Below, piece after piece: positions 5,160-23,068 of a DNA stretch of 33,415 nt. The translations under genes were made by a program, and so were the position numbers. The DNA comes from Candidatus Nanoarchaeia archaeon (lineage in GTDB: Archaea; Nanobdellota; Nanobdellia; Pacearchaeales; GW2011-AR1), in assembly GCA_028713045.1 (NCBI GenBank), contig JAQTOY010000006.1, positions 1 through 33,415 on the forward strand, given 5' to 3'. Position 1 is the stretch's first letter. Every line of letters begins with the position of its first letter. The notes below the pieces were generated by a model, which searched no databases, was not told the origin of the DNA, and saw only the letters and a list, made by a program, of their open reading frames with translations.

Positions 5160-5290
5160 GGGCCCGTAGTTCAATGGATAGAACACTTGGTTTCGGTGAG
5201 AATTTTTCACCTGACTATCTTCAGTGATAGATTAACAGGTGGAAAAATCGAAAAACCCAGGTGATCGGGGTTCAATTCCTCGCGGGCTCG
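5160..5290 (+). tRNA. tRNA-Arg(TCG) with intron (about 5197-5255)
   Basis: Acceptor GGGCCCG/CGGGCTC, D-arm GTTCAATGGATAGAAC, anticodon stem CTTGG/CCAGG, T-arm CGGGGTTCAATTCCTCG, discriminator G. TTTCG/CGAAA with a 3-nt AAC bulge is consistent with a BHB splice motif. Confidence 0.88.
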
Positions 5291-5293
5291 TAT

Positions 5294-5312
5294 TTGCCAC
5301 TGAAAGTGGCAA
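5294..5312 (+). other. Perfect hairpin TTGCCACT-gaa-AGTGGCAA in the tRNA-Arg 3' trailer
   Basis: 8-bp perfect stem with a triloop, 3 nt after the tRNA. Confidence 0.75.
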
Positions 5313-5324
5313 TTATGTCTTGAG

Positions 5325-5458
5325 AATTGAACCACAAGGGGTTCAATTACTTCAATTCGATAGAAGAGAATTGAAGTCACCAAGAATTTTGTGGATTAAA
5401 AAATCCTAGATTTTTTACCTGCTATCCAAAATTGTTGAGTGCCTCGCAGGCTCGTATT
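5325..5458 (+). repeat. Partial second copy of the tRNA-Arg T-arm and 3' acceptor, interrupted by a hairpin array (5349-5441)
   Basis: GGGGTTCAATT 5338-5348 equals tRNA 5267-5277. CCTCGCAGGCTCGTATT 5442-5458 matches tRNA 5278-5294 at 16/17. Inverted copy AATTGAACC at 5325-5333. Confidence 0.8.
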
Positions 5459-6317
5459 ACACACTCTCAATAATTATCGCAAGAACAACGCATACAAGAA
5501 TCACTATAGAAGAAATTATATTTCTTAAGGTAAGCTTTTCTTTAAGGAAAATCTTTGCAAAAACATATATGAATATTGGTGTCAATATGAACAAGATTGT
5601 TGTAAAAACTATCCCATAAACCTCATAGCCGTAATACAATATCACTCTATAAATAACCCAGATTATTCCTGTTAATAATATGAACAAACCTGTTTTCTTA
5701 TCTGTTTTTAATTTTGGCCTGAATATAAGCAGAGTAATAATAAAAATCACAGAACACCTTAAAAAATAAAATGTGAAACCATTATAATATGAAAGAATAA
5801 ATTTTGAAAGAACTAATTCAACTGCAAAAAACAAACTCCCTAACAATGCGGCGATTATGTATTTATCAAAAACCAAGTGATGTTTTTTAATATGAGAAAC
5901 AACTAAAGTAATGCTTGCTATAAATCCCAATAATAAAATAGAATAATTCCTCTCATTATAGTAGATTTCAAAGAAAAAACTCATTATAAATGCGAACAGA
6001 ATTGTTAACAAAGGTTGCATCAATCTTATAGGTTCAATCACACTAAGATTCTCCCTTTTAAGTGCAACAAAAGTCAGAAGATTTGCAATTATTGAAAAAA
6101 ATATTACCAAGAAAAATACAAATAGATTTTTAAATAAATAAGCTTCTGGTGAAACTCTCCAAAAAAAGAAACTCAAAGGAAGCGTTGCAATTACAATTGC
6201 CAAGAAACCAAAAACAGTATAATTTTTGTAGTTCAAAGACCTCTTTTTCAAAATAATCTTTTCAATAGTCATTCCAGCACCTTCAAGGAATGCTCCGATT
6301 ATAGGTAAGTATATCAC
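5457..6317 (-). CDS. EamA/DMT-family transporter-like membrane protein
   Basis: About 10 hydrophobic segments, EKIILKKRSLNYKNYTVFGFL...AKIFLKEKLTLRNIISSIVILVCVVLAI. Confidence 0.7.
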   Translation of the reverse strand: MIYLPIIGAFLEGAGMTIEKIILKKRSLNYKNYTVFGFLAIVIATLPLSFFFWRVSPEAYLFKNLFVFFLVIFFSIIANLLTFVALKRENLSVIEPIRLMQPLLTILFAFIMSFFFEIYYNERNYSILLLGFIASITLVVSHIKKHHLVFDKYIIAALLGSLFFAVELVLSKFILSYYNGFTFYFLRCSVIFIITLLIFRPKLKTDKKTGLFILLTGIIWVIYRVILYYGYEVYGIVFTTILFILTPIFIYVFAKIFLKEKLTLRNIISSIVILVCVVLAIIIESV

Positions 6318-22545: not shown

Positions 22546-22736
22546 TCAAAAATGTGAATTTTTGAGACTGAAAAAATCTTTTTTTCGCAACCTCGTAGGT
22601 TTTAACCCCAAGTAAGAAAAAAGATTTTCGAGGCACTAAAAAAACTTTCAGAAGTTTTTTTGTGCCCTAAAATTCCGTAAAGGAATTTTTTGGTGATCAA
22701 GAACTCACACTATGGGTTTTAACTCAAAGTTCTTGA
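22546..22736 (+). ncRNA. Candidate structured RNA or hairpin-array element (five consecutive stem-loops)
   Basis: Perfect stems 22546-22565, 22573-22628, 22632-22666, 22669-22689, 22697-22736; promoter-like AAGGATTTTTAAAT just upstream. Confidence 0.5.
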
Positions 22737-22794: not shown

Positions 22795-22869
22795 GGATCC
22801 GTAGCTCAGCCCGGTTAGAGTACTGCCCTCTTAAGGCAGGTGTCGGGGGTTCAAATCCCCTCGGGTCCA
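22795..22869 (+). tRNA. tRNA-Lys(CTT)
   Basis: Acceptor GGATCCG/CGGGTCC, anticodon arm CTGCC-CTCTTAA-GGCAG, T-arm GGGGGTTCAAATCCCCT, discriminator A. Confidence 0.93.
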
Positions 22870-22871
22870 TA

Positions 22872-22896
22872 AATGTATCGCTTAAAGCGATACATT
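22872..22896 (+). other. Near-perfect palindrome AATGTATCGCTT-a-AAGCGATACATT in the tRNA-Lys 3' trailer
   Basis: 12-nt arms, fully complementary. Confidence 0.75.
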
Positions 22897-22908
22897 ATAG
22901 TTCTGTGG

Positions 22909-23004
22909 ATTTTCACCCACGTGCGGGTTCAAATATCTTAAAATTCCTATGGAATTTTAATGAGACAGAGATTTTTACAAAATCTCTGTACCCTCGGGTC
23001 CATA
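22909..23004 (+). repeat. Partial second copy of the tRNA-Lys T-arm and 3' acceptor, interrupted by two hairpins (22935-22990)
   Basis: GGGTTCAAAT 22925-22934 equals tRNA 22847-22856. CCCTCGGGTCCATA 22991-23004 equals tRNA 22858-22871. Degenerate inverted copy ATTTTCACCC at 22909-22918. Confidence 0.8.
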
Positions 23005-23068
23005 TAAGTATTTCTTAAAAGTGGTAACAAATAACAAGGTTTAAAAATTTAGAATTTTTGTTAAATTT

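Follow-up and report, generated by a model that had tools for sequence, protein, structure and literature searches.

Duplicated tRNA 3' Ends Interrupted by Shared Hairpin Families Downstream of tRNA Genes in Pacearchaeota

Introduction

How does an intact tRNA gene come to be followed by a second, interrupted copy of its own 3' end? The question is raised by a tRNA-Lys gene in the window analyzed here, a 33,415-nt stretch of DNA that constitutes contig C31 of the genome G000 (0.96 Mb, 68 contigs, 87.6% complete). The relatives of the G000 proteins belong to the Pacearchaeota/Nanoarchaeota, which identifies the host as a DPANN archaeon. A literature search among papers outside subscription returned no report of such an interrupted tRNA self-copy arrangement; the nearest case is Caldiarchaeum, in which an extra tRNA fragment near a tRNA gene was tied to intron gain and a mobile element (PMC3293823).

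Results

Organization of the Two tRNA Tails in the Window

The tRNA-Lys gene (table 1) is followed by a tail of ~135 nt that consists, in this order, of a palindrome, a T-arm hairpin, a copy of the T-loop up to nt 60, two hairpins (P2 and P3), and a copy of the T-stem 3' strand and the acceptor strand. These pieces had been listed in a sequence-only reading of the DNA; each was located where that reading had placed it, and the palindrome and the two hairpins are perfect. The sequence CCCTCGGGTCCATA at 22991–23004 has the same letters as 22858–22871, as had been noted, and the full direct repeat is longer (29 nt at 86%, 22858–22886 vs. 22991–23019). Since the repeat reaches the trailer, the duplication covers trailer sequence and not the tRNA end alone. 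No ORF of at least 80 amino acids was found between 22869 and 22991. Upstream of the gene, a weak antisense match to the R2 model described below was observed at 22629–22708 on the minus strand (33 bits, E 0.005), and the intergenic region there contains further hairpins of the same style.

The tRNA-Arg gene of the window had been described as a parallel case and proved to be one: its tail follows the same plan and extends to about 5459. Its T-arm copy scores 11 (control 6.5) and the inverted copy 10 (control 6.8). The intron of the tRNA-Arg gene forms a single strict bulge-helix-bulge (BHB) exactly at the intron borders and resembles the hairpin family R1 (see below). The perfect triloop hairpins of the window cluster at its two tRNA loci.

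Table 1. Features of the tRNA-Arg and tRNA-Lys loci in the window.
Feature	Position	Strand	Evidence
tRNA-Arg (TCG) with 59-nt canonical 37/38 intron at 5197–5255	5160–5290	+	Rfam, 47.8 bits
Trailer palindrome 3' of tRNA-Arg	5294–5312	+	Hairpin check
Inverted and direct T-arm copy of tRNA-Arg, AATTGAACC..GGGGTTCAATT	5325–5348	+	Sequence, copy scoring
R2 model match in the tRNA-Arg tail	5335–5446	+	60.2 bits, E 4.6e-8 (sequence outside the R2 seed)
Hairpin nested within the P3 loop of the tRNA-Arg tail	5397–5417	+	R2 match region
Distal copy of the tRNA-Arg 3' end, 78% over 32 nt	5434–5465	+	Repeat search
Intact tRNA-Lys (CTT)	22795–22869	+	ARAGORN; Rfam RF00005, 64.5 bits
Direct repeat, copy 1 (T-stem 3' strand, acceptor strand, trailer)	22858–22886	+	Repeat search
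Trailer palindrome AATGTATCGCTTaAAGCGATACATT, perfect	22872–22896	+	Repeat search and hairpin check
Degenerate inverted T-arm stretch ATTTTCACCC, can pair with 22925–22934	22909–22918	+	Sequence
R2 model match (T-loop copy, P2, P3)	22921–22997	+	63.1 bits, E 1.3e-8 (member of the R2 seed alignment A3)
Second copy of T-stem 5' strand and T-loop, GGGTTCAAAT, last base nt 60	22925–22934	+	Score 10, control 6.8
Hairpin P2, 10-bp stem, triloop, perfect	22938–22960	+	Hairpin check
Hairpin P3, 11-bp stem, triloop, perfect	22965–22989	+	Hairpin check
Distal tRNA 3'-end copy CCCTCGGGTCCATA and trailer	22991–23019	+	Repeat search; 14 nt exact

Recurrence of Tails among tRNA Genes and Relatives

The tRNAs of G000 and six relatives were mapped, and the 350 nt that follow each tRNA were compared with its final 18 nt. 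Copies of the 3' end with a score of at least 10 follow 20.7% of the 145 tRNAs in the seven genomes compared with 0.16% when the ends of other tRNAs are swapped in, so the copies are not a product of chance, and the earlier argument from two unrelated tRNAs is borne out. A strict tail set, defined by a score of at least 9 and a copy that reaches the last four nt, contains 30 tails among 137 tRNAs (seven genomes) and 15 out of 33 tRNAs in G000, contig C46 left out. That small contig holds eight clustered tRNA genes, several with an encoded CCA (L068, G000:C46:1-3000); no tail was seen at any of the eight, and the contig is probably viral or extrachromosomal.

Tails occur in tandem or in series at the Leu, Gln, and Val tRNAs of G000 and at tRNA-Lys of G011, and they are patchy among orthologous tRNAs: tRNA-Asp and tRNA-Phe carry tails in G000 that are absent from G013. 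The inserts almost always have one orientation, mostly sense to the tRNA, with one inverted insert at tRNA-Lys of G010.

Copies of the 5' end upstream of tRNAs (score of at least 12) are rarer than 3' copies (2.1% vs. 0.28% in the control). Some tRNA-Lys genes in G006, G010, and G011 are intact and flanked on both sides by partial copies of themselves, the upstream copy being interrupted at about nt 9/10, and 5' partial copies also lie upstream of a tRNA in G024, G031, and G019. At the two-sided tRNA-Lys loci (L124 and L130 in G011, L129 and L141 in G006, L187 in G010) the 5' copy was observed near the promoter and mostly interrupted by another type of hairpin. Separately, a leader hairpin of the form AAGTTCA(stem)TGAAGAGAAA, or similar, recurs directly 5' of tRNAs of differing identity and species (L018 in G000, L093 and L156 in G013, L182 in G015). 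Loss of RNase P was considered as the cause of the odd leaders and trailers and rejected, as RNase P RNA is present.

Lone tRNA 3' halves with a P2-P3 insert in the T-loop were observed at G012:C144 (L296) and G041:C74 (L255); no 5' half was found upstream of either, and each might be a trans-split tRNA half or a relic. The copy of tRNA-Lys seen in G042 (L062, contig C3) has a short insert inside the T-loop, possibly a non-canonical T-loop intron within the same order.

Position of the Break and Local Origin of the Copies

The left part of the interrupted copy stops at nt 60, the last base of the T-loop, in 16 out of the 24 tails whose T-arm copy is informative, and the right part resumes at nt 61–64 in 23 out of 30 tails. 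The two parts are thus consecutive, nearly or exactly, which locates the insert at the border of T-loop and T-stem. The sequence-only reading had asked whether the break always follows nt 60; the position stands as the majority pattern but "always" does not, as inspection places the split of the Val and Arg-GCG copies of G000 in the anticodon loop, and in some tails it falls on the 5' side of the T-arm at positions 52–55.

The same reading had derived the copies from the local tRNA, and the scores agree: T-arm copies match their host tRNA with a mean of 7.6 and other tRNAs with 5.6. Its inverted T-arm copy holds over the whole set (mean 8.3 for the host, 6.0 for other tRNAs) but not at tRNA-Lys alone, where ATTTTCACCC scores 6 against a control mean of 5.1 with other tRNAs and the difference is not significant. 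In the 30 tails, 82–260 nt separate the copies, and the sequence of the repeat differs at every tRNA. Some positions of the distal acceptor copies have changed and no longer pair with the 5' strand (C6.A67 in Arg, and Ser), as fits decaying copies.

Two Insert Families

Whereas the flanking copies are of local origin, the inserts fall into families that different tails share, and the earlier statement that the copies are not a fixed part of a shared element was not supported. The Lys and Arg inserts fit a single model, R2 (63 bits for Lys, whose tail is in the seed, and 60 bits for Arg), that recurs behind tRNAs across the order. A second hairpin family, R1, is shared among other tails.

R2 is the composite of T-loop copy, P2, and P3 in the Lys, Ile, Leu, Gly, and Arg tails, and it is a conserved, covarying structure: 11 out of 12 pairs of the P3 helix covary (30 sequences), with wobbles nearly absent (4 G.U, 2 A.C). 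With few exceptions, the strongest matches (to about E 1e-6) are located behind tRNAs, in families f1, f2, and f4. Weaker matches with the same plan were found at tRNA-Thr of G036 (f6), tRNA-Arg of G032, and tRNA-His of G004, so that the structure stands behind tRNAs in at least four families (f1, f2, f4, f6) of the Pacearchaeota order. Exceptions include G041:C74 (f7), with no intact tRNA upstream, and G012:C153, which is preceded by a mere portion of a tRNA 3' end. Among 234 genomes sampled across the class and searched with strict filters, six contained a match, all in the Pacearchaeota order; in the two that were new, a tRNA and an acceptor copy are likewise present. The module order of R2-type tails (T-loop copy, P2, P3, acceptor copy) is kept across families.

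R1 is a hairpin with the foot (C/T)GAG...CGA(G/A) and matches in 18 out of 50 genomes. Among 56 distinct copies, aligned to a model that leans towards its own structure, 96.6% of the stem cells are paired and 14 out of 14 pairs covary, compared with 72% paired in shuffles and at most 50% when the partner is slid. The 5' foot has GA in 56 out of 56 copies, and the 3' foot has A in 56 and G in 53 out of 56. The outer foot pair varies among C-G, U-A, and U.G. An exact pattern search in the relatives gave matches in G000 only, because the stems vary. Hammerhead and kink-turn readings were rejected: there is no matching core, and the outer foot pair alternates without a bulge.

Dispersal and Strand Bias

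R1 also occurs away from tRNAs, among other places in frame inside genes, where it is mostly on the opposite strand, and is thus a dispersed repeat. In most of these genes a basic N-terminus precedes the site and a transmembrane helix follows it, and the encoded peptide, NSRxxF..LxSKRSQ, is at times doubled. Such antisense, in-frame copies were observed in genes for single-pass membrane or pre-pilin-like proteins, with NSRxxF..SKR(S)Q directly before the hydrophobic helix (L231 and L230 in G000, L233 and L234 in G013, L243 and L222 in G002, L245 in G017, L198 in G008, L226 in G011). The SKRS↓Q sequence resembles a class III signal-peptide cleavage site, and the insert may therefore be clipped off. 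In G012, a near-identical multi-hairpin repeat of ~300 nt with similar modules is present at about 13 sites (L281–L292, L295); it starts near TGTC and ends in TTTTTTGAT, and the trailer of tRNA-Met in the same genome (L251) has sequence like it.

The stems of R1 contain 77 G.U but 5 A.C pairs, an excess that marks one strand as the folded one. Within genes the bias persists on the strand opposite the mRNA (11 vs. 1, a small sample), which points to single-stranded DNA, HUH-like, rather than to a function of the transcript, and suggests that R1 is a single-stranded-DNA element. The argument does not apply to the tRNA-Lys insert, as P3 of R2 is nearly free of wobbles; perfect double changes of this kind would also fit template switching (PMC8794818). 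Y1_Tnp (PF01797) is absent from G000 despite its many R1 copies and present in G001, G002, G003, and G005; with G000 only 87.6% complete, a Y1 gene may have been missed.

Discussion

Origin of the Tails

The tails are tentatively explained, at a confidence a little short of even, as local duplications of tRNA 3' ends with a T-loop invaded by hairpin repeat elements. The duplication, local and redundant, would take in the T-arm, the acceptor strand, and some of the trailer, and palindromic hairpin elements of several families in the order would invade the T-loop of the copy just after nt 60. The upstream tRNA would keep or regain an intact 3' end, so that the insertion is tolerated, and the interrupted distal copy would be a by-product open to slow decay, tandem duplication, and renewed invasion. 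Serial and tandem tails, patchiness, and decayed acceptor copies fit a duplicated 3' end with its T-loop occupied by hairpins. The hairpins may be mobile and may act, in the single-stranded state, as one particular strand of the DNA; insertion and duplication may be mechanically linked, and an enzyme is presumably involved. Against this explanation stand the absence of a transposase tied to the elements (no Y1_Tnp in G000), the constant module order of R2 across families, which a purely selfish element does not require, the nearly uniform orientation of the inserts, and, for R2, a P3 stem that does not mark the strand and strong matches that with few exceptions keep to tRNAs. More broadly, it is possible but doubtful that Pacearchaeota have tRNA-directed elements that target nt 60 of the T-loop and regenerate the 3' end on insertion (some relatives would have 5' counterparts, with the break at about nt 9/10), or else a conserved tail RNA with a function.

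The tail could alternatively be a functional structured RNA derived from the transcript of the tRNA. Selection would keep it as a scaffold for processing, as a tRNA-like decoy, or as a guide, with T-arm and acceptor copies that co-evolve with the host tRNA. This is unlikely, although the order of T-loop copy, P2, P3, and acceptor copy, conserved over several families, speaks for it; moreover, both helix types covary strongly, inserts are mostly sense to the tRNA, and the fold of 22868–23010 is far more stable than shuffles (z −6.75). However, selection on a tRNA-linked RNA sits poorly with the patchy occurrence among orthologous tRNAs, with acceptor copies that decay without keeping their pairing, and with R1 being under the same structural constraint where it is antisense in genes. 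Searched against Rfam, the tails gave only tRNA at the gathering score and thus no match to a known RNA family. An acceptor-swap fold switch was also rejected: the distal copy wins the 5' acceptor strand in 29 out of 30 folds but does so in 27–28 out of 30 with poly-A, shuffled, or random-hairpin interiors, so the preference is generic.

Template switching during replication at tRNA or other hairpins might have made the tails from nearby templates without any mobile element; RNA hairpins are reported to arise and to be maintained by this process (PMC8794818). It would account for the mixture of direct and inverted local copies, for the clustering of the window's perfect triloop hairpins at its two tRNA loci, and for a P3 nearly free of wobbles despite many double changes, as one-step re-copying of a stem gives. 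Nevertheless, it leaves unexplained both the single breakpoint and the motif-bearing insert families shared among different tRNAs, genes, and genera, and is judged distinctly unlikely.

Integrative elements of Archaea use tRNA genes as attachment sites and leave a direct repeat of the 3' end beside an intact tRNA, and the tails show the same kind of repeat. They might accordingly be remnants of elements integrated by archaeal tyrosine recombinases at a T-arm/acceptor site, the body having been deleted; integration targeted to a tRNA classically leaves the 3' end in duplicate, and the tRNA fragment in Caldiarchaeum was likewise tied to a mobile element. That case, however, concerns one tRNA and a 1.8-kb recombinase-coding element, whereas the tails of the G000 type involve many tRNAs and hairpin-only inserts (PMC3293823). 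With only about 80–260 nt between copies at 30 tRNAs, a common structure, no integrase or other gene, a repeat that differs at every tRNA and is interrupted inside the T-arm copy, and nearly half of one genome's tRNAs affected, this origin is highly improbable.

Hardly tenable, finally, is the reading of the insert as a BHB-type archaeal tRNA intron in the T-loop with the distal part as an alternative 3' exon: the tRNA-Arg 37/38 intron resembles R1 and has a perfect BHB, and the tRNA-Lys of G042, seen in a single copy, has an insert in its T-loop, but a strict BHB is found at 7 out of 30 tail junctions, which is no excess over the mean of 0.58 matches per tail at shifted positions.

Comparison with Known Systems

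Non-canonical archaeal tRNA introns interrupt loops, the T-loop included, and the tails also interrupt tRNA sequence in a loop; the tail junctions, however, have no excess of BHB motifs and the interrupted copy is not the only copy of the tRNA. The palindromic elements of Rickettsia are palindromic repeats in frame in protein genes. R1 shares this property but is unrelated in sequence, has a defined place in membrane proteins, and is associated with tRNA copies. Such tRNA introns are described for Archaea (PMC4090602). REP/REPIN sequences are palindromic repeats with RAYT (Y1) transposases (PMC2817692, PMC3116915, PMC3733652). R1 is similar to them in being a short, strand-specific, imperfect hairpin with invariant foot nucleotides that is dispersed and sometimes paired; the description of a dispersed imperfect palindrome with an invariant foot fits R1 but not demonstrably the P2-P3 insert at tRNA-Lys. 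R1 differs from REP/REPIN sequences in its presence within copies of tRNA 3' ends and, in frame, within genes, its greater length (about 55–60 nt), its archaeal host, the absence of a Y1 transposase from the G000 search, and its foot, which is (C/T)GAG / CGA(G/A) instead of the GTAG/CGTC tag.

Implications

If the hairpins are mobile, they would constitute a hairpin element that lands in the most conserved tRNA loop at many tRNAs while the gene is spared, and the pattern may help to explain how tRNA genes become targets of mobile hairpin DNA. It would also offer a testable route to fragmented, intron-bearing, or nested archaeal tRNA genes, whose emergence is an open question in tRNA evolution. 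If the tails are functional, an unrecognised RNA would be joined to almost every second tRNA in a DPANN lineage. On either reading, tRNA annotation and counts of tRNA fragments in DPANN genomes are affected, and a tRNA-directed class of elements or a conserved tail RNA would, if true, represent a new kind of tRNA-linked system.
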